NCBI RefSeq assembly: GCF_030696805.1
Contig: NZ_JAUYRO010000064.1
Coordinates: forward strand, 1-38,726
DNA from: Methyloversatilis sp.
Lineage (GTDB): Bacteria; Pseudomonadota; Gammaproteobacteria; Burkholderiales; Rhodocyclaceae
Direction of reading: 5' to 3'
Length of the DNA: 38,726 bases
Part shown: positions 3,255-35,102 of the stretch, piece by piece
Position numbering within the stretch: the stretch's first letter is position 1
Layout of the letters: each line of letters begins with the position of its first letter
Position numbers and translations under genes: made by a program
Notes under the pieces: generated by a model
Seen by the model: only the letters and a program-made list of their open reading frames with translations
Databases searched by the model: none
Told to the model about the DNA's origin: nothing

Positions 3255-3692
3255 TCAGAGGCCCGGTACCGCGAGCCTGCGGCGCAGCCAGCGCATCGCG
3301 CCGCCGATCACCGGCAGCTTTTCGTACAGCTCCTGCGCGGCATCCCAGTAATCGCGATGTTCGGCGACGCACCCCGCGTCGTCGAAGCGCAGCCGCGTCG
3401 CGCCCACGATCTGCAGCGCCTGCCCGCGCATCGTGAAATGCATCGTCCAGTCCAGCCACGCCGTATCGCCTTCGCTCATCGCCGAGTGCACCTCGAAGCG
3501 CGGTGAGTCGACCTGCTCGAACATGTGGCTGAAAATGCGCGCCACCGCCGCCCGCCCCCGCACATCGTTGAACGGATCGCGGAAGGTGGCGTCGGCCGCG
3601 TACAGCGCAGCGAGCCGGTCCACGGTGTCCAGCGTCAAGGCTTCGAACGCCGCGATCAGCGCGCGCAGGCGCAGGTCGGTGTCAGGAGACAT
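3255..3692 (-). CDS. SnoaL/NTF2-like fold protein
   Basis: A 145-residue protein of the NTF2-like/SnoaL superfamily. It has an N-terminal helical part with the common phrase ALYAADATFRDPF, then alternating strands with DWTMHFTMRG and VGATRLRFDDAG, and a closing HRDYWDAAQELYEKLP. Similar bacterial proteins often sit near steroid, lipid or regulatory genes, but the substrate cannot be read from the sequence. It lies 86 bases upstream of hrpA's 3' end on the same strand and is probably a separate transcription unit, convergent with dolP across a 24-base gap. Confidence 0.8.
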   Translation of the reverse strand: MSPDTDLRLRALIAAFEALTLDTVDRLAALYAADATFRDPFNDVRGRAAVARIFSHMFEQVDSPRFEVHSAMSEGDTAWLDWTMHFTMRGQALQIVGATRLRFDDAGCVAEHRDYWDAAQELYEKLPVIGGAMRWLRRRLAVPGL

Positions 3693-3778
3693 GTCGTGTC
3701 ATTCCGGAATCTTTCCCATCGGCCATTCTTGCAGAGAGTGACCGTGGGGTGCATTTGTGGGTGTGGGCGGCAGGCCGG

Positions 3779-6700
3779 TCAGGCCCGCGCACGCGACTCC
3801 CATATCTTCTGCAGCCGTTTCACCGACACCGGCACCGGGGTGCGCAGTTCCTGGGCGAACAGGTTCACGCGCAGCTCTTCGAGCAGCCAGCGGAACTCAT
3901 CGATGAACGGATCGGCCACGCCGGCGCGGGCGCGGACGATGCGTTCGCGGTCCCACAGGGTGGCCAGTGACTGCCAGTCGGCCAGCGCGCGGGCGTCGCG
4001 TTCCGGGTCGGTGCGCAGCTTGTCGATGCGCAGCGCGATCGCCTTCAGATAGCGTGGGTAGTGGGTCAGCCGCTCGAACGGCGTACGTTCGATGAAGAAC
4101 TTGCCGACCAGTGCATCGAGTTGGGCGCGCATGTCGGCGCCGGCATCCGGATGCGCCTTCAACGCGATGAGCTTTTTGCTCAGCGCGGCGTATTCGGTCA
4201 GCACGCTGCCAGCGAGCCGGCCGATTTCCTGCGCCACCAGCGAAATGCGCGGCCGGGCTTCGTCGCGGCGCGCGGCAAAGCTCGCAGCATCCTGCGGCCA
4301 GGGGTCCATCATGCAGCAGCGGTCCATCGTGGCGGCAACAAGCTGCGCGCGCAACTCCGGCTCGCTGCCCAGATTCATGTACTGCATCGCCATGTCGCGC
4401 AGGCCGGGCAGGCTCTTTTCGATGTACTTCACCTGATCGCGCAGCTCGAGCGCAAACAGCCGACGCAGGCCGCGCCGGTGCACCTCCAGCGCAGCCTCCG
4501 GCGTGTCGAGCACGCGCAGGCTGACCGACTCGCCTTCGTCCTGCAGCGCCGGAAAACCGATGACGCGACGACCGGCCACTTCGACTTCCATCAGTTCGGG
4601 TAGCGGCCCGAAGGTCCACGCGCGATAGCGTTCGTCGCCGGCGGTCTGCTCGGCGACCGCCGGGGCGGCCGGCTCGGCTGCAGCGCGGCCCTTCTTCGTC
4701 GGCTGCGGCACCGGCGCCTTCGCCACCACATCGCGTGCGCCGAGCGCAGACAGCGCGTCGGCCATGCTGCCGCGCGCCGTCGCGGCCTTCGCGGCCACCG
4801 CCTCGTTGTGCGCCGCAGCCGGTGCACTTGCCGGCGGGCGAGCCGCGTCCGCCACGGGTGCAGCCGGCGGCAGCGCGATGCGTGCCGACTCGAAACGACG
4901 CGCCACCTCGTCCTTCAGCCGGGTGCGCAGTTCGGCCAGATTGCGCGACTGGCCGAGCACCCGGCCGTGCTCATCGACCACCCGCACATTCATCATCAGA
5001 TGCGCCGGCAGGTTTTCGGCACGGATGGCATCGGACGGCAGCTTCAGGCTCACCTTCAGTTCGATCGCGCGCGCCAGCGCCTTCACCAGCGGTTCGGCCT
5101 GGTCGTGTTCCTGCGCGATGAAATCGGCGACGAAACCGGCCACCGGCTGCAGACGATGGCGCAGCTTCGGCGGAATGGTCTTGGCCAGCTGCAGCACTTT
5201 CTCTTCGATCAGGCCGGGCACCAGCCAGTCGAGCCTGGCCGCCGGAATCTGGTTCAGCAGCGTCAGCGGCACGGTCAGCGTGACGCCGTCGTCGGCCGCG
5301 CCCGGTTCGTGCCGGTACTCGAGCTTCAGGCGCTGGCCCAGCAGATCCATCTTGGCCGGGAAGCGCTCGCTGCTGACGCCGGCCGCCTCGTGGCGCATCA
5401 GCTGTTCGCGCGTGAGATGCAGCAGCTTCGGGTTTTCGCGCTCGGCGTCGCGCCGCCAGCGCTCAAAGCCGCGCAAATCGATCACGTCCGCGGGCACGAT
5501 GGAATCGTAGAAGGCGTGAATCAGCGATTCGTCCACCAGCAGGTCCTGGCGCCGCTGCTTCTCTTCCAGCCGCTCGATCTGCGCGATCAGGTCAAGGTTG
5601 TGCTGCAGGAATTTCATCTGCTTCAACGCGATGTCGGTCACGTCGCCATTGACCAGCCCTTCGCGGATCAGCAGTTCGCGCGCCAGCACCGGGTCGGTCT
5701 TGCCGTACTGCACCGCCCGCTTGGCATACAGCGTGATGCCGTGGATGACGCCGCGCTCCCAGGCGACCGTCTCGCCGCGGCTTTTCGACCAGTGCGGCTC
5801 ATAGGTCGAGCGACGCAGCAGATGGGCGCCCACCTCCTCCACCCATTCCGGTTCGATGCGCGCGATACAGCGCGCGAACAGCCGCGTGGTTTCGACCAGT
5901 TCGGCGGTCATGATCCACTTGCCGCCTTTCTTCGCCAGCGCCGAGCCCGGATGCGGCCAGAACTTGATGCCGCGTGCGCCCAGATACGGCGGTTCGCCGG
6001 CGCGCGCGTCTTCGATGCGCAGTCCGAGATTGCCGAGCAGGCCGGTCAGCAGCGCGCGATGCAGCGCATCGAATTCGGCCGGCCGTTCGTTCTCCTTCCA
6101 GTCGTGCTCGGCACACAGCGTGTGCAGCTGGGTGTGCACGTCGCGCCACTCGCGCATGCGCATCCAGTTCAGGAAGTTGGCGCGGCACCACTCGCGCTGC
6201 TTGGCCTGAGACTGGTGATGCCACACCTCGTCGAACGCCGCCCACGCCTTCAGATACCACAGGAATTCGCTGCGTTCGTCGGCGAACTTCGCGTGCGCCT
6301 GATCGGCTGCGCCGGCCCGTTCTTCGGGCCGGTCGCGCGGGTCCTGCACCGACAGGCCGGCGGTGATGACCAGCACTTCCTTCAGGGCGCCGTGGTCGCG
6401 CGCCGCCAGAATCATGCGCGCCACGCGCGGGTCGACCGGCAGCTTCGCCAGTTCGCGGCCGAGCGGCGTCAGATCGCGCGCCTCGTCCACCGCGCCCAGT
6501 TCCTGCAGCAGCTGATAGCCATCGGCGATGGCGCGCGGCGCTGGGCGGTCGATGAAGGGGAATTCCTCGACGTCGGCCAGACTGAGCGACTTCATGCGCA
6601 GGATGACGCCGGCCAGCGACGAGCGCAGGATTTCCGGGTCGGTGTGCGCCGGCCGCAGGTTGAAATCCTCTTCGTCGTACAGCCGGAAGCACACGCCGCT

Positions 6701-7909
6701 CGACACCCGGCCGCAGCGGCCGGCGCGCTGCTTGGCAGCCGACTGCGCAATCGCTTCAACTTGCAATTGCTCGACCTTGTTGCGGTAGCTGTAGCGCTTC
6801 ACGCGCGCCAGACCGGTGTCGATCACATAGCGGATGCCCGGCACGGTGAGCGAAGTTTCGGCCACGTTGGTGGCGAGAATGACGCGCCGGCCGTTCGAAC
6901 CCTGGAACACGCGCGACTGTTCCTGCGCCGACTGACGCGCGTACAGCGCCAGCACTTCCGGCTTCACGCCGGCCAGCCGCGTGTGGTGCTTGCGCAGCGC
7001 CTCGGTGCATTCGCGGATTTCCCGCTCGCCCGGCATGAACACGAGCACGTCGCCCGGGCCCGTCGAGAAGGCCTCGTCCACCGCGTCGCACACCGCGTCA
7101 TACAGGTCGCGGTCCTTCTGCGCCTCGAACGGCCGCCAGCGCATTTCGATCGGGTACAGCCGGCCGCTCACCTCGATCACCGGCGCCGGCCTGTCGCCCT
7201 GCGCGAAGTGGTTGGCGAAGCGCTCGGCGTCCAGGGTGGCGGAGGTAACGATCACCTTCAGGTCGGGCCGGCGCGGCAGCACCTCGCGCAGATAGCCGAG
7301 CAGGAAGTCGATGTTCAGGCTGCGCTCGTGCGCCTCGTCGATGATCAGCGTGTCGTAGGCGGCCAGCCAGCGGTCGCGCTGCGTTTCGGCAAGCAGGATG
7401 CCGTCGGTCATCAGCTTGATGCGGCTGTCTTCCGACGTGCGATCGGTGAAGCGGATCGCGAAGCCGACTTCGCGGCCGAGCGACACGTTCAATTCCTTGG
7501 CGACACGGTCAGCGGTGGCGCGCGCCGCGATGCGGCGCGGCTGCGTATGGCCGATCAACCCGCGCGCGCCACGGCCCAGTTCGAGGCACAGCTTGGGCAG
7601 TTGCGTGGTCTTGCCGGAGCCGGTTTCGCCACACACGATGATGACCTGATGCGCCTGCAGCGCGGCCGCGATTTCGTCGCGCCGCGCCGACACCGGCAAC
7701 TCTTCCGGGTACTCGATCTTCGGCGCCGACGCGCGCCGCGCCGCGACCTTGGCCTGCGACGCCGCGACGCGTTCGGCCAGCTTTGCCGGCCACTTGTCCG
7801 GCGCGCGTTGCCCCGGCGGCAGTTCGCGCAGCGCGCGGCCGATTGCCGCCGCATCGCGGCTCATGCAGCTTTCGAGAATGGCGTTCAGATCGGGGGGCGG
7901 CACAGTCAT
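3779..7909 (-). CDS. hrpA: ATP-dependent RNA helicase HrpA
   Basis: A 1376-residue DEAH-box helicase. Walker A is GETGSGKT at 94-101 and the DEAH box is at 191-194. The SAT motif follows in VTSATLDAERF, and motif VI is QRAGRCGR. After the RecA domains come the HA2/OB segments and a long C-terminal DUF3418 region, which defines the HrpA type; E. coli HrpA is about 1300 residues. HrpA acts on stalled ribosomes and on mRNA processing in E. coli. An alanine/proline-rich low-complexity linker of about 80 residues in the C-terminal half is longer than usual and accounts for the extra length. The ATG at 7909 precedes a typical N-terminal helical segment. Confidence 0.95.
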   Translation of the reverse strand: MTVPPPDLNAILESCMSRDAAAIGRALRELPPGQRAPDKWPAKLAERVAASQAKVAARRASAPKIEYPEELPVSARRDEIAAALQAHQVIIVCGETGSGKTTQLPKLCLELGRGARGLIGHTQPRRIAARATADRVAKELNVSLGREVGFAIRFTDRTSEDSRIKLMTDGILLAETQRDRWLAAYDTLIIDEAHERSLNIDFLLGYLREVLPRRPDLKVIVTSATLDAERFANHFAQGDRPAPVIEVSGRLYPIEMRWRPFEAQKDRDLYDAVCDAVDEAFSTGPGDVLVFMPGEREIRECTEALRKHHTRLAGVKPEVLALYARQSAQEQSRVFQGSNGRRVILATNVAETSLTVPGIRYVIDTGLARVKRYSYRNKVEQLQVEAIAQSAAKQRAGRCGRVSSGVCFRLYDEEDFNLRPAHTDPEILRSSLAGVILRMKSLSLADVEEFPFIDRPAPRAIADGYQLLQELGAVDEARDLTPLGRELAKLPVDPRVARMILAARDHGALKEVLVITAGLSVQDPRDRPEERAGAADQAHAKFADERSEFLWYLKAWAAFDEVWHHQSQAKQREWCRANFLNWMRMREWRDVHTQLHTLCAEHDWKENERPAEFDALHRALLTGLLGNLGLRIEDARAGEPPYLGARGIKFWPHPGSALAKKGGKWIMTAELVETTRLFARCIARIEPEWVEEVGAHLLRRSTYEPHWSKSRGETVAWERGVIHGITLYAKRAVQYGKTDPVLARELLIREGLVNGDVTDIALKQMKFLQHNLDLIAQIERLEEKQRRQDLLVDESLIHAFYDSIVPADVIDLRGFERWRRDAERENPKLLHLTREQLMRHEAAGVSSERFPAKMDLLGQRLKLEYRHEPGAADDGVTLTVPLTLLNQIPAARLDWLVPGLIEEKVLQLAKTIPPKLRHRLQPVAGFVADFIAQEHDQAEPLVKALARAIELKVSLKLPSDAIRAENLPAHLMMNVRVVDEHGRVLGQSRNLAELRTRLKDEVARRFESARIALPPAAPVADAARPPASAPAAAHNEAVAAKAATARGSMADALSALGARDVVAKAPVPQPTKKGRAAAEPAAPAVAEQTAGDERYRAWTFGPLPELMEVEVAGRRVIGFPALQDEGESVSLRVLDTPEAALEVHRRGLRRLFALELRDQVKYIEKSLPGLRDMAMQYMNLGSEPELRAQLVAATMDRCCMMDPWPQDAASFAARRDEARPRISLVAQEIGRLAGSVLTEYAALSKKLIALKAHPDAGADMRAQLDALVGKFFIERTPFERLTHYPRYLKAIALRIDKLRTDPERDARALADWQSLATLWDRERIVRARAGVADPFIDEFRWLLEELRVNLFAQELRTPVPVSVKRLQKIWESRARA

Positions 7910-27236: not shown

Positions 27237-29207
27237 TCAGCCCTTGAGCAGGCGCGATTCGGCCTGAGCCAGTTCGGCCGGCGCGCCCAGCAGCACCACC
27301 ACATCGCCGCTTTCGAATGCCAGATCGGAACTGGGCTCCAGCGCCCGGATGCCGCGTCGGCGGATCGCGCTCACCTCGACGCGGATGTCGTTGAAGTGGA
27401 ATTCGTCGATGCGGTGGCCGATGGCCCAGGCGCCCGGCGCCAGCGGCACCGAATGCAGACGCGTGTGTTGCTGATCGGACGCCGCCTCTTCCGCCAGATG
27501 TTCGGCGCCGCGGTAAAGCCCGCGCAACAGGTGATAGCGATCGCCTCGGAACTGGCGGATGCGCTTGAGCACGCGATGCAGCGGAATGCCCAGCAGCACC
27601 AGAGCGTGGGTGGCCAGCATCAGTGACGATTCGAGCGATTCCGGCACCACTTCGGTGGCGCCCGCAGACGACAGCTTGTCGTAGTCGCGCTCGTCGAAGG
27701 TGCGCACGACCACCGGCACTTCGGGATGCAGCTCGTTGACCAGGTGGATCACGCGCAGCGCCGCCTCGGTATCGACAAACGTGATGACGACGATGGATGC
27801 GCGCGTCAGCCCGGCTGCGATCAGCGTTTCGCGCTTGCCGGCGTCGCCGAACACCACCGTTTCACCGGCCGCCGCCGCCTCGCGCACCCGCTCCGGATCG
27901 AGGTCGAGCGCGATGAACGAAATACCCTCGTTTTCCAGGAAGCGCCCCAGGTACTGACCGTTGCGGCCGTAGCCGCAGACGATGGCGTGACCGTCGGTGG
28001 CCAGTGACTGGGCGGCGATCGACGTGAGCTGCATCGAACGCATCAGCCATTCCGACGGCACCAGCCGCAGCACGATGCGGTCGGCGTAGTGGGCGAGGAT
28101 GGGTGCGGTCAGCAAGCTCAGCAGCAGCGAGGCGAGCACGATCTGCAGGATGCGGTCGGGCAGCAGGTTGGCCCCATCGGCCAGCGCCATCAGCACGAAG
28201 CCGAATTCGCCGCCGGCGCACAGCCACAGCCCGACGCGCAGCGCGGTGCCGGGCGACGAGCCGAAAAAGCGCGACGCTGCGGCGGCAACCACGAACTTGC
28301 CGATCAGGATGAACAGCACCGTCACCAGCACGAAGAACAGCTCGGACAGCACCAGCGCGAGGTTGAGCTTCATGCCGATGGTGACGAAGAACAGGCCGAG
28401 CAGCACGTCGCGGAACGGCTTGATGTCTTCTTCCACCTGATACCGGTACTGGGTTTCCGAAATGAGCATGCCGGCCAGGAAGGCGCCGAGCGCCAGCGAC
28501 AGCCCGGCGTGTTCGGTTGCGAACGCCATGCCCAGCGTCACCAGCAGCACGTTGAGCATGAACAGCTCGGGCGACTTGCGCTGCGCCACAACGAAGAACC
28601 AGCGCTGCATCAGGCGCGGGCCGAGATACAGGATGAGGGTGAGCGCCACCGCGGCCTTCACGCCGGCCAGCGCCAGCGCTTCCATGCTTTCCTCGGCGCC
28701 GAGCGACAGCACTGGAATCACCACCAGGAAGGGCACGACCGCCAGATCCTGGAACAGCAGCACGCCGATCACCTGCCGGCCGTGCGCGGAATCGAGTTCC
28801 ATCCGCTCGACGAGCAGCTTGATCAGCACCGCGGTGGACGACATGGCGATGGCGGCGCCGACGGCAATCGCGCCCTTGAGGCTCAGGCCGAACAGCCAGG
28901 CGAATGTGATGACACCGGCCACCGACAGCGCCACCTGGGTGCCACCCAGGCCGAACACCACGCGCTTCATCGAAAACAGCTTGGGCAGCGAGAATTCGAG
29001 GCCGATGGAAAACATCAGGAACACGATGCCGTATTCGGCGAACTGCCGCGCCTCGTCGGTATCGGGAATGAAAGCCAGCGCATGCGGTCCGGCCAGCGCA
29101 CCGACCAGCAGGTAACCGAGTATGGGCGGCAGGCCGACGCTGCGGAAAAGGCCGACCACCAGCACTGAAGCGGCGAGCAACAGCAGGACCAGCTCGAGTG
29201 CGGACAT
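27237..29207 (-). CDS. KefB/KefC-type monovalent cation:proton antiporter
   Basis: A 656-residue CPA2-family transporter. The N-terminal two thirds has about 12 membrane helices with PPILGYLLVGALAGP, SIGLEFSLPKLF and ALGAFLAGMLIS. A TrkA-N (RCK) domain follows, starting with the nucleotide-binding AIVCGYGRNGQYLG near residue 415, and a TrkA-C domain closes the protein (VSAIRRRGIRALEPS). It exchanges K+ or Na+ for protons, gated by nucleotide. Whether it is glutathione-gated like E. coli KefB/KefC cannot be told, and no KefF/KefG partner is adjacent. It is divergent from kdsD. Confidence 0.9.
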   Translation of the reverse strand: MSALELVLLLLAASVLVVGLFRSVGLPPILGYLLVGALAGPHALAFIPDTDEARQFAEYGIVFLMFSIGLEFSLPKLFSMKRVVFGLGGTQVALSVAGVITFAWLFGLSLKGAIAVGAAIAMSSTAVLIKLLVERMELDSAHGRQVIGVLLFQDLAVVPFLVVIPVLSLGAEESMEALALAGVKAAVALTLILYLGPRLMQRWFFVVAQRKSPELFMLNVLLVTLGMAFATEHAGLSLALGAFLAGMLISETQYRYQVEEDIKPFRDVLLGLFFVTIGMKLNLALVLSELFFVLVTVLFILIGKFVVAAAASRFFGSSPGTALRVGLWLCAGGEFGFVLMALADGANLLPDRILQIVLASLLLSLLTAPILAHYADRIVLRLVPSEWLMRSMQLTSIAAQSLATDGHAIVCGYGRNGQYLGRFLENEGISFIALDLDPERVREAAAAGETVVFGDAGKRETLIAAGLTRASIVVITFVDTEAALRVIHLVNELHPEVPVVVRTFDERDYDKLSSAGATEVVPESLESSLMLATHALVLLGIPLHRVLKRIRQFRGDRYHLLRGLYRGAEHLAEEAASDQQHTRLHSVPLAPGAWAIGHRIDEFHFNDIRVEVSAIRRRGIRALEPSSDLAFESGDVVVLLGAPAELAQAESRLLKG

Positions 29208-29271
29208 GGTGGGCAGGAAGGGGCGGCAAGGCCATGAGCGGATGGCCGGCCGCCTGCCGTGGGCAGGTTGT

Positions 29272-29277
29272 TATAAT
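29272..29277 (+). promoter_or_regulatory. Possible -10 box of the kdsD operon
   Basis: TATAAT stands in an otherwise G/C-rich 152-base gap between the divergent kefB-like gene and kdsD, 82 bases before the kdsD ATG. No good -35 hexamer is seen at 16-18 bases, so the promoter assignment is tentative. Confidence 0.4.
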
Positions 29278-29359
29278 CCGCAGCGATCATAACCGATCCA
29301 CCCGAACGCCCGCGCTGCGGGCACCTGCCGGATCAACCGGGCCTGCCCCCGCCAGACGC

Positions 29360-30349
29360 ATGACACACAGTTCCCCGCCCGTCACCGAAGACATCGTCGC
29401 CGCCGCCCGTCGCGTGCTCGACATCGAAGCGCGCGCGATCGACGCGCTGTCCGATCGCCTTGGCGAAGACTTCGCCGCCGCGGTCCGGCTGGTGCTCGAC
29501 AGCACCGGCCGCGTCATCGTCAGCGGTCTGGGCAAATCCGGGCACATCGCGCGCAAGATCGCCGCGACGATGGCCAGCACCGGCACACCGGCCTATTTCG
29601 TTCATGCGGCCGAGGCGCTGCACGGCGATCTGGGCATGATTCATCGTGACGATGTGCTGATCGCGCTGTCCAATTCGGGCGAAACAGCCGAGTTGCTGGC
29701 GGTGGTACCGCTGGTGCGCCGGCAGGGTGGCCGCACGATCGCGATGACCGGCAAGCCGGATTCGACACTGGCCCGGCTGGCCGACGTGCATCTGGACGCC
29801 GGCGTGGCCACGGAAGCCTGCTCGCTCAATCTTGCCCCGACCGCCAGCACCACCTGCGCGCTGGCGCTCGGTGACGCATTGGCGGTTGCGCTGCTCGACG
29901 CGCGCGGTTTTCGCGAAGACGACTTCGCACGCAGCCACCCGGGCGGCGCGCTCGGCCGGCGCCTGCTGACCCATGTGCGCGACGTGATGCGCGCGCGCGC
30001 CGACGTGCCGACGGTGGGTGTCGACTGCACGGTGACCGAAGCGCTGCTGCAGGTGACGCGCGGCGGCATGGGCATGACCGTGGTGCTGGATGAAGCCGGC
30101 GGCGTGGCCGGGGTGTTCACCGACGGCGACCTGCGGCGCGCGATCGACCGCCTGGGCGACGTGCGCACCGTGCCGGTGGCCGACGTGATGAGCCGTCAGC
30201 CGCGCTCGATCAGCGAGGCGAAGCTGGCCGCCGAAGCGGCCGACGTGATGGAACGCAACCGGGTCAACCAGTTGCTGGTGACGGATGAACACGGCGCACT
30301 GGCCGGCGCGCTGAGCATGCACGACCTGATGCTGGCCAAGGTGATCTGA
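29360..30349 (+). CDS. kdsD: Arabinose-5-phosphate isomerase KdsD
   Basis: A 329-residue enzyme (E. coli 328) that converts ribulose 5-phosphate to arabinose 5-phosphate, the first step to Kdo. The SIS domain shows VSGLGKSGHIARK with K59 and ALSNSGETAE. SHPGGALGRRLL leads into two CBS domains with VFTDGDLRRAI and ALSMHDLMLAKV. The frame is open upstream, but ATG 29360 gives the family's N-terminus. It is first of kdsD-kdsC-lptC-lptA; kdsC begins two bases after its stop. Confidence 0.96.
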   Translation: MTHSSPPVTEDIVAAARRVLDIEARAIDALSDRLGEDFAAAVRLVLDSTGRVIVSGLGKSGHIARKIAATMASTGTPAYFVHAAEALHGDLGMIHRDDVLIALSNSGETAELLAVVPLVRRQGGRTIAMTGKPDSTLARLADVHLDAGVATEACSLNLAPTASTTCALALGDALAVALLDARGFREDDFARSHPGGALGRRLLTHVRDVMRARADVPTVGVDCTVTEALLQVTRGGMGMTVVLDEAGGVAGVFTDGDLRRAIDRLGDVRTVPVADVMSRQPRSISEAKLAAEAADVMERNRVNQLLVTDEHGALAGALSMHDLMLAKVI

Positions 30350-30351
30350 AC

Positions 30352-30882
30352 ATGGACGGCAATGCGGTACGCGAGGTGGCGGGCCAGGTCCGCCTGATGG
30401 GTTTCGATGTCGACGGCGTCATGACCGACGGCACGATATGGTTCGGCCCGGACGGCGACCTGATGAAGGGCTTCAACACGCTGGACGGACACGGACTGAA
30501 GATGCTGGCCGGCGCGGGCGTCGAAATCGTCATCATTTCCGGTCGCTCGTCGGCGGCGGTGCGTCACCGCGCAGCCAATCTCGGCATCACCACCGCGCTG
30601 CTCGGCGTCGAGAACAAGCGCGACGCGATGCGCGAACTGGCGGCCGAACGTGGCATTCCGCTGGCGCATTGCGGCTACATGGGTGACGACATCGTCGACC
30701 TGCCGGTGATGCGTGCCTGCGGCTTTTCAGCGGCACCGGCCAATGCCCACTTCTTCGTGCTCCAGCATGCGCGCTGGATCGCCGAAGCCGAGGGCGGCCG
30801 CGGCGCAGTGCGCGAAGTGTGCGAATACCTGCTCGACGCGCGCGGCGCGCTCGACGCGCTGCTGCAGGACTGCCTGCGTTGA
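30352..30882 (+). CDS. kdsC: 3-deoxy-D-manno-octulosonate 8-phosphate phosphatase KdsC
   Basis: A 176-residue HAD-family phosphatase that releases Kdo from Kdo 8-phosphate. The catalytic motif I is FDVDGVMTDG with D19 and D21; motif II is IISGRSS; motif III/IV includes ENKRDAM and GYMGDDIVDLPVM. Like other KdsC enzymes it has no cap domain and probably forms a tetramer. Its stop overlaps the TTG start of lptC. An N-terminal extension of about ten residues before the motif is normal. Confidence 0.96.
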   Translation: MDGNAVREVAGQVRLMGFDVDGVMTDGTIWFGPDGDLMKGFNTLDGHGLKMLAGAGVEIVIISGRSSAAVRHRAANLGITTALLGVENKRDAMRELAAERGIPLAHCGYMGDDIVDLPVMRACGFSAAPANAHFFVLQHARWIAEAEGGRGAVREVCEYLLDARGALDALLQDCLR

Positions 30883-31454
30883 ACCGACGCATCCAGCAGG
30901 CGCTGCCGCTGCTCATCCTGATCGGACTCGCCGGCATGACGATCTGGCTCGAGCGCACGACGCGCATCGACGACAAGCCGTCGAGCGGCAGCCTGCGTCA
31001 CGACCCGGACGTGATCATCGACAACTTCACGCTGTACCGCTACGACGAATCCGGCGCGATACAGCACACCCTGACGGCCCGGCAGATGCGCCACTACCCG
31101 GACGACGACTCGGCCGAACTCGACCACCCGACGCTGCGCTACGAAGGCAAGCTGGCGCCGACCCACATCAGCTCCGAACGCGCGCTGCTGACCAAGGATG
31201 GCAAGGAAGCCATCCTGCGCGACAATGTGCGAGTGCTGCGCGAAGCCAGTCCGGGCCGCGCCGAAATGACGCTGGCGACCACGCTGCTGTATGTGTATCC
31301 GGAAGAGGAAATCGCGCGCACCGATCAGCCGGTGCGCATGACGCAGGGCAAGTCGGTGGCGACCGGCGTTGGCATGGTCGCTGATCGCATCAAGGAACAA
31401 TACGTACTCGAATCGCGCGTCAAAGCCACCATAGAAAGAGCCCGCCGCCCATGA
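30879..31454 (+). CDS. lptC: LPS export protein LptC
   Basis: A 191-residue protein with a TTG start that overlaps the kdsC stop (TTGA), giving tight coupling. One membrane anchor lies near residues 8-24 (LPLLILIGLAGMTIWL), and the periplasmic jellyroll follows, with DNFTLYRYDESGAIQHTL and EEIARTDQPVRMTQG. LptC links the LptBFG transporter to the LptA bridge. Earlier starts inside kdsC exist in frame, but the TTG yields the standard N-terminus. It overlaps lptA by four bases. Confidence 0.93.
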   Translation: MNRRIQQALPLLILIGLAGMTIWLERTTRIDDKPSSGSLRHDPDVIIDNFTLYRYDESGAIQHTLTARQMRHYPDDDSAELDHPTLRYEGKLAPTHISSERALLTKDGKEAILRDNVRVLREASPGRAEMTLATTLLYVYPEEEIARTDQPVRMTQGKSVATGVGMVADRIKEQYVLESRVKATIERARRP

Positions 31455-32035
31455 TTTCGCGTCAGATCACTGCCGCATTGACCACCCTGGCCCTGCTGCT
31501 GGCAGCCGGCCTGCCCGCCACCGCCCGCGCGGAACGCGCCGACCGCGACAAGCCGGTCAATCTCGAAGCCGACAAGGTGACGGTGGACGACCGCACGAAA
31601 ACCCACAACTTCGAAGGCAATGTCGTATTCACGCAGGGCACGCTGACCATCAAGGCCAACAAGGTCGTGGTGACGCAGGATGCGACCGGCTACCAGAAGG
31701 GCGTGGCCACCGGCGGCGAAAACGGTCTGGCGCGCTTCAGGCAGAAGCGCGACGGTCAGGACCTCTGGATGGAAGGCGAGGGGGAGCGCATCGAGCACGA
31801 CGCGAAGACCGAAATCACCCGCTTCTACGTGCGTGCCCACGTGAAGAGCGGCGGCGACGAGGTGCGCGGCCAGTACATCGAATACAACTCGATCAGCGAA
31901 AATTATACGGTCACCAATTCGGCCGACGCGAAGGCGGTGCCGTCGGGTGGCGACCAGTCGAAGCGCGTTCGCGCCATCATCCAGCCCAAGAGCGCGCCGG
32001 CGGGCGCGGCGCCGGAGACGGCACCCAAGCCCTGA
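31451..32035 (+). CDS. lptA: LPS transport periplasmic protein LptA
   Basis: A 194-residue periplasmic protein with a signal peptide ending ARA near residue 26. The OstA-like jellyroll contains VNLEADKVTVDDRTKTHNF, VVFTQGTLTIKANKVVV and a C-terminal alanine/proline tail. LptA forms the bridge carrying LPS across the periplasm. In many proteobacteria lptB and rpoN follow; here the next genes are on the opposite strand, so lptB must lie elsewhere. Confidence 0.95.
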   Translation: MISRQITAALTTLALLLAAGLPATARAERADRDKPVNLEADKVTVDDRTKTHNFEGNVVFTQGTLTIKANKVVVTQDATGYQKGVATGGENGLARFRQKRDGQDLWMEGEGERIEHDAKTEITRFYVRAHVKSGGDEVRGQYIEYNSISENYTVTNSADAKAVPSGGDQSKRVRAIIQPKSAPAGAAPETAPKP

Positions 32036-32044
32036 GGTCGTGCG

Positions 32045-32278
32045 TCAGGCGGCCCTGGGCGCCTGCCCGGACGTCTGCGCAGGGGGCTCCGCATCCGTCA
32101 ATTCGCGCAGGCAGGCGATACACAGGCAACCCACGTAGCGTTCGCGCAGGTCGGCCAGCACCTCCGGATCGATCTTCAGCGTGAAACAGTCGCAGGGCGC
32201 CGGCCCGGCCGCGCCACAGGTGAAGCTGCCCGCGCAGCGCGGGCAGCAGTCGGGTTCGAAAACGGCGGCTTCATTCAT
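32045..32278 (-). CDS. Cysteine-rich CWC-family small protein
   Basis: A 77-residue protein dense in cysteine: C11, C12, C15, C21, C29, C31, then C51, C53 and C56. The pattern CPRC-x5-CG...PCDC fits the cysteine-rich CWC family, with D replacing the usual W. It probably binds zinc or an iron-sulfur centre; no function is known. Its ATG overlaps the matB stop (ATGA), so it is translated with matB, and it is convergent with lptA across 9 bases. Confidence 0.82.
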   Translation of the reverse strand: MNEAAVFEPDCCPRCAGSFTCGAAGPAPCDCFTLKIDPEVLADLRERYVGCLCIACLRELTDAEPPAQTSGQAPRAA

Positions 32279-33810
32279 GCCGCGAACAGCGCGCGGTGCG
32301 CGTCGCGCAGCAGGTTCTTCTGCACCTTGACCATCGTGTTGCGCGGCAGTTCGGACACGATGAACAACCGCTTGGGCACCTTGAAGTTGGCGATCCGCGC
32401 CTTCAGCCGTGCTGTCATCGCGGCGGCGTCGAGCGCCGCACCCGGCTTGGCGACCACGATGGCGACCACCGCCTCGCCGAAGTCGGCGTGCGGCACGCCG
32501 ACCACCGCCGATTCCGCCACGCCCGGCATGTCGTTGATGACGCTTTCGATCTCGGCCGGATACACGTTGTAGCCGCCGCTGATGATCAGATCCTTGCTGC
32601 GGCCGACGATGGTCACATAGCCGTCTGCGCTCAGATGGCCGACGTCACCGGTCATGAACCAGCCGTCGGCGGTGAATTCGGCGGCGGTCTTTTCCGGCAT
32701 GCGCCAGTACCCCTTGAACACGTTCGGGCCACGCACCTCGATGCCGCCGATGTCGCCCGCCGGCAGCAGTTGCCCCAGGTCGTCGCGCACACGGAGGCCG
32801 ACGCCCGGCAGCGCCGGCCCGACCGTGCCGCCGCGGCGCTGGTCTTCCGGCCGGTAGGGGTTGGATGTGAGCATCGCGGTTTCGCTCATGCCGTAACGCT
32901 CCAGTATCGTGTGGCCGGTGCGCTGCCGGAAGTCGCGGAAAGTTTCGATCAAAAGCGGCGCAGAACCGCTGATGAACAGACGCATGCCGCGGCAGGTCTG
33001 CTTCGTGACGCCGGGTTCGGCCAGCAGGCGCACGTACAGCGTCGGCACACCCATGAACACCGTGGCGTCGGGCAGGCGCGCCACCACGGCTCGTGGATCG
33101 AAACGGCTGAACCAGATCATGCGGCTGCCATTGAGCAGCGCTCCGTGCGAGGCAACGAACAGCCCGTGCACGTGGAAGATCGGCAGCGCGTGCAGCAGCA
33201 CGTCGCCCGGCTGCCAGCCCCACACCTCTTTCAGCACCTGCGCGTTCGACAGCAGGTTGCCGTGCGTCAGCATGGCGCCCTTGCTGCGGCCGGTCGTGCC
33301 GCTGGTATACAGGATCGCCGCCAGATCGTCGGCCGCGCGCAGCGCCGGCGTGTGACGGTCGCTGTGCGGCGCGGCCGCCTCGAGCAGGCTGCCGCTGCGG
33401 TCGTCTTCCAGCGTGAACACATACGGTGTACCCAGACGCGCGGCGAGATCGCTCACCCATCTGACGTTCCTCTCGGTGCACACGACCACAGCCGGCTCCG
33501 CGTTGCCGATGAAGTACTCGACCTCGCCCGCCTGGTAGGCGGTGTTCAGCGGCAGGTAGATGTGGCCCGCGCGCAGCACGGCGAGGTAGAGCATCAACGC
33601 CTCGACGCTCTTCTCCGTCTGCACCGCGATGCGGCTTTCCGGAAGAAGCGCGAGCGAATCGATCAGGTTGGCCAGCATGGCTGTGCCGCGTTCGAGGTCG
33701 CGCCAGGTGTAGTACAGCGGATCGGGTGTATCGGCGGTTTCGATGGCGACTGCATCGACATCGTCCGGGAAGGCTGCGCGCAGTGCGCAGAACAGGTTTT
33801 CCTGCGTCAT
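32275..33810 (-). CDS. matB: Malonyl-CoA synthetase (MatB-like acyl-CoA ligase)
   Basis: A 511-residue ANL-superfamily adenylate-forming enzyme. The phosphate loop is YTSGTTGRSKG at 168-178; A5 is ERYGMSETAM; the hinge region has TGDVG and GRSKDLIISGGYNVYPAEIE; the C-terminal catalytic lysine lies in MVKVQKN. SGSAPLLIETFRDFRQRTGH is the phrase typical of malonate-activating MatB enzymes, so malonate plus CoA plus ATP is the likely reaction. No malonyl-CoA decarboxylase (matA) or malonate transporter is adjacent. Methylmalonate or other short acids remain possible. Confidence 0.85.
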   Translation of the reverse strand: MTQENLFCALRAAFPDDVDAVAIETADTPDPLYYTWRDLERGTAMLANLIDSLALLPESRIAVQTEKSVEALMLYLAVLRAGHIYLPLNTAYQAGEVEYFIGNAEPAVVVCTERNVRWVSDLAARLGTPYVFTLEDDRSGSLLEAAAPHSDRHTPALRAADDLAAILYTSGTTGRSKGAMLTHGNLLSNAQVLKEVWGWQPGDVLLHALPIFHVHGLFVASHGALLNGSRMIWFSRFDPRAVVARLPDATVFMGVPTLYVRLLAEPGVTKQTCRGMRLFISGSAPLLIETFRDFRQRTGHTILERYGMSETAMLTSNPYRPEDQRRGGTVGPALPGVGLRVRDDLGQLLPAGDIGGIEVRGPNVFKGYWRMPEKTAAEFTADGWFMTGDVGHLSADGYVTIVGRSKDLIISGGYNVYPAEIESVINDMPGVAESAVVGVPHADFGEAVVAIVVAKPGAALDAAAMTARLKARIANFKVPKRLFIVSELPRNTMVKVQKNLLRDAHRALFAA

Positions 33811-34021
33811 GTTCGGGTTGTCCGTTATTTTGCGCGCGGAGTATGGCGGCCGGCCGGTGGCAGCGTCAATCGGCCGCGATCATGAAAATCATGGGCCTTC
33901 TTTCGTGCGCATCTTCAGGTGCGCAAATGCTGTCGCGTCCATTATTCACTTCACGCACGGCAGACGCCGATGCAACGCGAAAGACCTGAAGACGTACGCA
34001 CCACACACCAAGGAGACTCAC

Positions 34022-34096
34022 ATGAACTGGCAAACCCCGAAGGCGACCGACCTGCGTTTTGGCTTTGAAATCACGATGTACATCGCCAACCGCTGA
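34022..34096 (+). CDS. pqqA: PQQ precursor peptide PqqA
   Basis: A 24-residue peptide, below usual gene-finding size cut-offs. Its core is DLRFGFEITMYIANR, with E16 and Y20 in the E-x3-Y spacing that PqqE cross-links to begin pyrroloquinoline quinone synthesis. Length and the flanking W3 and P6 match known PqqA peptides. A strong ribosome site AAGGAG lies 7 bases before the ATG, and an intrinsic terminator stands 25 bases after the stop, so it forms its own short transcript. pqqB, pqqC, pqqD and pqqE are not in the window. A lone extra pqqA copy is known in some methylotrophs. Confidence 0.92.
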   Translation: MNWQTPKATDLRFGFEITMYIANR

Positions 34097-34121
34097 ACGG
34101 TGCGGCAGTACAGGCAGGAAA

Positions 34122-34149
34122 AAAAACGGCGGGCACTCCCGCCGTTTTT
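34122..34149 (+). terminator. Intrinsic terminator after pqqA
   Basis: A 12-bp perfect stem, AAAAACGGCGGG at 34122-34133 against CCCGCCGTTTTT at 34138-34149, with a CACT loop. The trailing T-run provides the U-tract, and the leading A-run would let it work from the other strand too. Confidence 0.9.
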
Positions 34150-34232
34150 CATTGCCGACGACGGTGACCGCAGTTACTGACGCGGCGCAGCAGGCGATAT
34201 AAGGTGCTCTCCTACGATTCAGGGGAGCCATC

Positions 34233-35102
34233 ATGTCCAGCAGTTCGATGCAGATCGAAGCCTTCTTCGATGAAGCGACCAGCACGGTGAGCTACCTCGT
34301 GCTCGACCGCAGCACGCAAGCCTGCGCCATCCTCGATAGCGTACTCGACTACGATCCCAAGGCCGGTCGCACCTCGACACAGTCCGCCGACCGCCTGATT
34401 GCGCGCGTGCGCGAACTGGGCGCCCGACTCGAATGGATACTGGAAACCCATGTGCATGCCGACCACCTGTCGGCCGCGCCACATCTGCGCGCACAGCTCG
34501 GCGGGCAACTGGGCATCGGTGCCCACATCGTCACCGTGCAGAAGGTGTTCGGCAGCCTGTTCAATGCCGGAAGCGATTTCGCACGCGACGGCCGCCAGTT
34601 CGACCGGCTGTTCGCGGACGGCGACAGCTTCACCATCGGTTCGCTGACCGCGCGCGCACTGCACACGCCGGGTCACACGCCGGCCTGCATGAGTTATGTG
34701 ATCGAGGATGCGGTGTTCGTGGGCGACACGCTGTTCATGGCCGACTACGGCACCGCGCGCTGCGACTTCCCCGGCGGCGACGCGCGCACGCTGTATCGCT
34801 CGGTGCGCCGGCTGCTGTCGCTGCCGCCGGACACGCGGCTGTTCATGTGCCACGACTACCCGCCGGGCGGCCGCGCGCCCGCATGGGAAAGCACGGTGGC
34901 CGAACAGCGCGCGCACAATATCCATGTGCATGACGGCATTTCCGAAGACGATTTCGTCGCCATGCGCACGGCGCGCGACGCCACGCTCGACATGCCGGTG
35001 CTCATCCTGCCGTCGGTGCAGGTCAACATGCGCGCCGGCCACTTGCCCGAGCCGGAAGACAACGGCACGCGCTACCTGAAGATTCCGCTCGACGTGCTGT
35101 GA
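34233..35102 (+). CDS. MBL-fold hydrolase, persulfide-dioxygenase-like
   Basis: A 289-residue metallo-beta-lactamase-fold protein. The metal site is T-H73-V-H75-A-D77-H78, followed by HTPGHTPACMSY, GDTLFMADYG with a second-shell aspartate, and FMCHDYPP near the C-terminus. The order and the C-terminal segment PVLILPSVQVNMRAGHLP resemble the persulfide dioxygenase/Blh-type branch, which oxidises glutathione persulfide to sulfite. No rhodanese domain is attached. Its stop overlaps the start of the SulP gene (GTGA), which supports a role in sulfur-anion chemistry. A generic glyoxalase II-like hydrolase cannot be excluded. Confidence 0.85.
   Translation: MSSSSMQIEAFFDEATSTVSYLVLDRSTQACAILDSVLDYDPKAGRTSTQSADRLIARVRELGARLEWILETHVHADHLSAAPHLRAQLGGQLGIGAHIVTVQKVFGSLFNAGSDFARDGRQFDRLFADGDSFTIGSLTARALHTPGHTPACMSYVIEDAVFVGDTLFMADYGTARCDFPGGDARTLYRSVRRLLSLPPDTRLFMCHDYPPGGRAPAWESTVAEQRAHNIHVHDGISEDDFVAMRTARDATLDMPVLILPSVQVNMRAGHLPEPEDNGTRYLKIPLDVL

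Follow-up and report, generated by a model that had tools for sequence, protein, structure and literature searches.

A lone pqqA gene and its neighbors

The window, that is, the whole stretch of 38,726 nucleotides of Methyloversatilis sp. DNA that was analyzed, is contig C37 of a 4.19-Mb draft genome and carries a pqqA gene on its forward strand. Open reading frame and profile analyses place this gene at 34022–34096 (24 codons plus stop), with an ATG at 34022 and a TGA stop at 34094–34096. The encoded peptide, MNWQTPKATDLRFGFEITMYIANR, passes the cut-offs of both the Pfam PqqA family PF08042 (36.7 bits against 21.1) and NCBIfam TIGR02107 (38.5 bits against 20). PqqE is the enzyme that cross-links PqqA, and the cross-link pair Glu16-x3-Tyr20 is present in the peptide. 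A Shine–Dalgarno sequence, AAGGAG, lies on the same strand at 34010–34015, six bases 5′ of the ATG. An initial annotation, made from the sequence alone, had described a 24-codon lone pqqA with an E-x3-Y pair and a good ribosome site; these features were confirmed, and the reality of the gene is further supported by its occurrence with the same neighbors in 6 of 13 genomes of the genus.

Upstream of pqqA, a divergent malonyl-CoA synthase gene was identified by profile search at 32275–33810. Downstream, the gene at 34233–35102 encodes an MBL-fold protein resembling the C-terminal part of Blh, with a score under the cut-off of the Blh model; among its close relatives are one from Methyloversatilis sp. 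XJ19-49, which is 98% identical, and one from M. universalis EHg5, with 78% identity. As had been stated in the initial annotation, no pqqB–E genes were found in the flanks read around the gene, and pqqBCDE are located on another contig, C76. Farther away in the window, open reading frames at 29198–32035 resemble the lipopolysaccharide genes kdsD, kdsC, lptC, and lptA as judged by eye.

Copies of pqqA in the genome and the genus

The source genome contains three pqqA genes: the window copy, C34:81284, and C76:17074. The first two are both lone and identical at 75 of 75 nucleotides. The third shares 70 of 75 nucleotides with the lone copies, encodes the same peptide, and heads pqqB, pqqC, pqqD, and pqqE, each of which scores above its NCBIfam cut-off; one PqqE match above the cut-off was found in the genome. 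The search for pqqBCDE and additional pqqA copies that had been proposed at the outset thus yielded a full set of pqqBCDE and two further pqqA genes, in keeping with the earlier view that the lone gene looks functional and is not a relict. The model of PQQ-dependent alcohol dehydrogenases (TIGR03075) has 14 matches in the genome, six of them above the cut-off.

Each of the 13 congeneric genomes carries 2 to 5 pqqA genes, and all 45 were extracted. Thirteen head pqqB (one per genome), six have the neighbors of the window copy, 11 have the C34-type neighbor, and 15 are placed elsewhere; positions therefore turn over between species, that of the window copy being kept in six genomes. Two of the 15 copies placed elsewhere, in genomes G010 and G006, encode a divergent peptide starting with MQWIDPAY; the one in G006 (C19, L048) has a downstream start that looks similar by eye and no clear box of the kind described below. 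After removal of these two, a set of 43 MNW/MSW-type copies (30 lone and 13 operon) was obtained, in which W3, FGFE at positions 13–16, and Y20 are invariant in 43 of 43, the cross-linked E16 and Y20 among them, while many codons vary synonymously. Selection presumably keeps the intact copies. That lone copies can be dispensable follows from the C34-type position of genome G007 (C56, L203 at about 3.9–4.1 kb), where pqqA has decayed, the cross-link Glu being replaced and the stop lost; the promoter and terminator stretch of the decayed copy is still recognizable.

A promoter layout common to lone and operon copies

Comparison of the copies revealed a conserved arrangement upstream of pqqA, which in the window lies on the forward strand. 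It begins with a dyad-like box, TCATGAAAATCATGG, at 33880–33894 (consensus TCATGAwwwTCATGA), which sequence patterns mark as a putative regulator site and whose core may resemble part of a Fur-type site. The 3′ part of the conserved element (GCC...TTC) follows at 33895–33904, then CAGG (often GAGG in other copies) at the −35 position at 33916–33919, of which the A is found in 43 of 44 rows and the last G in all 44. A hexamer, CATTAT, at 33940–33945, which is 60 nt downstream of the first base of the box, is a predicted −10 element; in the alignment, 43 of 44 rows have its A (at +61), and 43 of 44 have its T (at +65). Lone and operon copies share this upstream element, which reads TCATGAwwwTCn(T/C)(G/T)AGnC followed first by TTC, next by a motif like GAGG, and last by an A...T hexamer, with deviations in single copies. 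The spacing between box and hexamer is constant, and among the copies of the genus the box itself lies 119–145 nt 5′ of the ATG.

Within this common layout, the boxes fall into subtypes. The sequence is TCATGAATTTCC(C/T)(T/G)AG in operon copies and TCATGAAAATC(G/A)TG in the two lone copies of the source genome, and it varies among the remaining lone copies. The initial annotation had suggested that promoters of the pqqA copies be compared for differences, and that a stand-alone copy could either raise precursor dosage or be expressed under conditions other than those of the main operon. The differences found are fine ones in the box. A separate expression condition is not supported, because lone and operon copies have one promoter layout, with the same kind of box and the same box-to-−10 spacing; the proposal of precursor dosage is plausible, since the copy looks functional and the genome contains pqqBCDE and two other pqqA genes. 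Given the fine differences in the box, lone and operon copies may still differ in strength or timing.

The specificity of the box for pqqA depends on the length of the pattern. In the source genome, the exact 18-letter pattern occurs at the three pqqA genes only. When up to two mismatches were permitted, there were seven matches versus two for a backward control; the four that are not at pqqA (on C71, C104, C18, and C52) lie inside coding open reading frames and were regarded as chance matches. With one mismatch allowed, the 15-letter dyad also finds one site within a coding open reading frame on C52. Across the 13 genomes of the genus, the same search gave 35 sites, 24 at pqqA and 11 elsewhere, and none for the backward control. 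As judged by eye, none of these 11 sites is beside a recognized pqqA, pqqB, PqqU, or DUF1800 gene, and several are inside open reading frames. In the genus, the shorter dyad is less specific for pqqA than the 18-letter box.

A sequence-only model of 68 nt (R1) recovered 43 copies in the 13 genomes with E values of 5.5e-5 or better, a result that is by construction, 42 of the sequences having been used for training; in each genome, scoring was applied to the best 150 of about 3500–7000 first-look candidates. The decayed copy came next (7.1e-5), and the first match after the pqqA copies, at G008:C8 inside a large open reading frame, had an E value of 0.0046.

The box was also considered as an operator of PQQ dehydrogenase genes and rejected, as the best weight-matrix score at 10 of the 14 TIGR03075 loci, with flanks of about 1.5 kb, was −3.2 versus a training minimum of 29.6. 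The source genome has a PqqU-like receptor gene at C9:189512 (E value of 8e-129 to YncD), for which the best upstream box-like site matches at 12 of 15 positions. In genome G006 (C31:124904, L266), a pair of small genes has a dyad-like site where one of them starts, and a similar gene pair adjoins pqqE in the source genome (L007, 3854–5698).

Leader hairpin and terminator

The 12-bp-stem terminator described in the initial annotation is well supported. Folding and a dedicated script both identify an intrinsic terminator at 34122–34149 on the forward strand, with a 12-pair stem, a CACT loop, and a T-run. Its folding z score is −3.43, and none of 200 shuffles is equally stable. While a simple terminator scan of 33700–34300 listed no site, the script, which permits overlap of T-run and stem, recovered it. 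Among the 13 genomes of the genus, such terminators follow 30 of 30 lone MNW/MSW-type pqqA genes, 0 of 13 operon copies, and 0 of 2 MQWIDPAY copies. With a terminator of its own and no adjacent pqqB–E, the window copy is an orphan pqqA.

A leader hairpin is predicted at 33955–33973 on the forward strand, directly after the predicted transcription start; in the window copy, a bulge interrupts its stem. An uninterrupted stem of at least six pairs within the first 32 nt was found in 31 of 43 copies versus 756 of 4300 shuffles, and 12 of 43 leaders, including that of the window copy, lack one. In pair counts that left out the operon copy L017 and six lone copies whose leaders are longer, all 72 cells of 12 operon leaders pair, with both sides changed at three of six pairs, while 89.4% of cells pair in 24 lone leaders (22 distinct). 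The covariation score was reached by 0 of 500 shuffles in either group, the number of both-side-changed pairs by 29 of 500 for operon and 187 of 500 for lone leaders, and further pair types by 247 of 500 and 16 of 500, respectively. This covariation is taken as supportive only, because related sequences can beat such shuffles without structure. The hairpin at the 5′ end could protect the mRNA. As for a known RNA element, no Rfam family came near its gathering score in 33750–34250.

The box outside the genus

A survey of 150 relatives, the 13 genomes of the genus included, found pqqA in 45. Outside the genus there were 53 pqqA matches, and 51 copies were recognized by a regular expression in 50 of 52 loci, two being dropped. 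A box matching at least 16 of 18 positions is present within 320 nt upstream of 39 of these 51 copies, compared with a best score of 15 of 18 among 1020 shuffles and of 14 of 18 among 51 downstream stretches. In 50 boxed upstream sequences, the −10-like A...T pair lies at offset 61 in 28 rows and at offset 62 in 17 (a row may count twice), and at any other offset from 45 to 73 in at most five. Both inside and outside the genus, the box thus stands about 60 nt from a −10-like hexamer.

The pattern TCATGAAAATCATGAGNC with at most one mismatch has 28 matches, and its backward control none, in 16 genomes chosen for having pqqA. Twenty-one of them are no more than 320 nt from pqqA, one is 0.65 kb upstream of a pqqA that has pqqB behind it, one lies before pqqB, two are beside divergent TonB-receptor genes, and three are beside DUF1800 genes. 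When 399 genomes of the order were searched with no mismatch, 24 matches in 19 genomes were obtained, with none for the backward control among the matches listed; the order is that of GTDB, Burkholderiales, while NCBI puts Methyloversatilis in Sterolibacteriaceae, Nitrosomonadales. The exact pattern misses variants, since 380 of the 399 genomes, the source genome included, are without a match. Nine of the 24 matches were already in the 16-genome set; the 15 new ones comprise 12 before pqqA, one at a DUF1800 gene, one beside a divergent TonB-receptor gene, and one 292 nt from a divergent pqqB. In sum, 43 of 43 distinct box matches outside the genus are at such genes: pqqA (34), pqqB (2), PqqU-like receptors (3), and DUF1800 (4).

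The three box-adjoining receptor genes (L253, L255, and L288), which are cut by locus ends, are divergent from the box, and the only PDB entries that their products match with E values of 1e-10 or lower are YncD (6v81) and the PQQ transporter (9c4o), with best E values from 1e-113 to 6e-81. Three non-Methyloversatilis genomes thus have a homologue of PqqU/YncD next to a pqqA-type box. The DUF1800 genes (PF08811; L248, L249, L259, and L280) start 98–123 nt from the box in four genomes. Orientation and distance of the box at PqqU and DUF1800 genes vary from gene to gene. Within the genus, neither the 11 dyad sites away from pqqA, viewed by eye, nor the PqqU-like gene of the source genome revealed a clear box at pqqU or DUF1800.

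Interpretation

The window locus is probably a self-contained pqqA minigene that would increase the dosage of substrate, be regulated together with the pqq operon, and have its product processed by the PqqD and PqqE of that operon. This reading builds on the genes present, the identity of the peptide, the promoter layout, the terminators, and the conservation in the genus. The six alcohol dehydrogenase matches above the cut-off and the compensatory changes in the leader hairpin also count in its favor. The unit would consist of a promoter with the dyad-like box, a short leader with a hairpin, pqqA, and the terminator, in this order. If the promoter is active as predicted, pqqA would give a separate mRNA of about 0.2 kb at the times of pqqABCDE transcription, since the same kind of putative regulator site precedes both. 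The peptide would then be cross-linked between Glu16 and Tyr20 by PqqE with PqqD, supplied by the operon on the other contig. Since one PqqA is used per PQQ while the enzymes act repeatedly, extra monocistronic copies would raise the amount of substrate without more enzyme.

Work by Ge in 2015 reportedly dealt with multiple pqqA copies in Methylovorus MP688. Availability of PqqA is rate-determining in Methylovorus according to Ge 2015, as cited in the accessible part of PMC11317620, and this rate limitation counts for the dosage minigene. Counted against it are the turnover of positions, the decay of the G007 copy, and the reported dispensability of pqqA in Methylorubrum extorquens, where, in the accessible part of PMC11317620, the gene is cited as not required for PQQ synthesis and the orphan copies were not investigated.

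The same organism offers an argument for the view that a lone copy serves a condition other than that of the operon: its orphan pqqA2 and pqqA3, unlike most pqq genes, showed a fourfold change from one neodymium condition to another (PMC11317620, accessible part), and the box subtypes of operon and lone copies in Methyloversatilis differ as well. Yet the kind of box, its spacing, and the position of the −10 element are the same in both types of copy, and one sequence model, although built from them, fits all 43, which makes such a division of labor unlikely. A neutral duplicate that is being lost would account for the decayed copy in G007 and for the variable positions among species. It is quite improbable, as the peptide, a recognizable box with its spacing, and the terminator are kept in 30 lone copies, and the position of the window copy is common to six genomes. 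A role of the peptide or transcript other than that of a precursor, for example in lanthanide uptake, is favored by a published suggestion only, made for PqqA in the accessible part of PMC11317620. Such a role is highly improbable for the window copy, whose peptide is exactly the operon-encoded precursor and in whose surroundings (33750–34250) no Rfam family reaches its gathering score.

The box matches outside the genus suggest a PQQ regulon spanning synthesis and, in some species, uptake. On balance, we lean toward TCATGAAAATCATGAG(N)C as the operator in a dedicated, order-wide PQQ regulon, in which one putative regulator would act on lone and operon pqqA copies and, in some species, on pqqB, PqqU, and DUF1800. 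The 11 dyad sites of the genus that are not at pqqA make this proposal less secure. In the accessible part of PMC12124388, PqqU and the pqq operon are considered to be generally regulated independently, as inferred from lack of synteny, with four Burkholderiales genomes as exceptions; in contrast, the box suggests a common site in some genomes. If the regulon is real, synthesis and uptake would be co-regulated in those species, contrary to the inference from synteny, and DUF1800, a protein of no known function, would gain its first functional link. DUF1800 is a possible PQQ-linked family, by association only, and no paper linking it with PQQ was found in the open-access literature searched; nor was any description of a pqqA promoter box. 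The promoter comparison opens the questions of how a stoichiometric peptide substrate is balanced against catalytic enzymes and what senses the demand for PQQ. The box could be used as bait for the putative regulator, and in some genomes it connects PQQ synthesis with PqqU and DUF1800.

Methylotrophs are already known to carry lone pqqA copies, and the window copy is of a known kind, as such copies are reported in the accessible parts of PMC4109929, PMC9851590, and PMC11317620. Methylophilaceae have 3–12 pqqA genes per genome and typically one set of the remaining pqq genes, an arrangement like that of Methyloversatilis, with one pqqBCDE cluster and several pqqA; they belong to another family, however, and the accessible part of PMC4109929 describes no promoter site common to the copies, unlike what is found here. 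In Methylorubrum extorquens AM1, pqqA2 and pqqA3 resemble the window copy in being lone and outside the pqq cluster, but they change apart from most pqq genes (PMC11317620, accessible part), whereas the lone copies of Methyloversatilis have the promoter layout of the operon. The strain described in PMC9851590 has, according to the accessible text, five pqqA genes: three stand separately, one belongs to pqqABCDE, and one is part of a pqqADE operon that is almost silent. Like Methyloversatilis, it has lone pqqA alongside a full cluster; its expression was measured and it has a second cluster, pqqADE, while the source genome is known from sequence and has a single PqqE match above the cut-off. 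A second cluster is also present in the congener G010 (C15, L205 at 3310–4860), where the MQWIDPAY-type pqqA, with no clear box, is beside pqqD and pqqE in an arrangement that resembles the almost silent pqqADE operon reported in the accessible part of PMC9851590.
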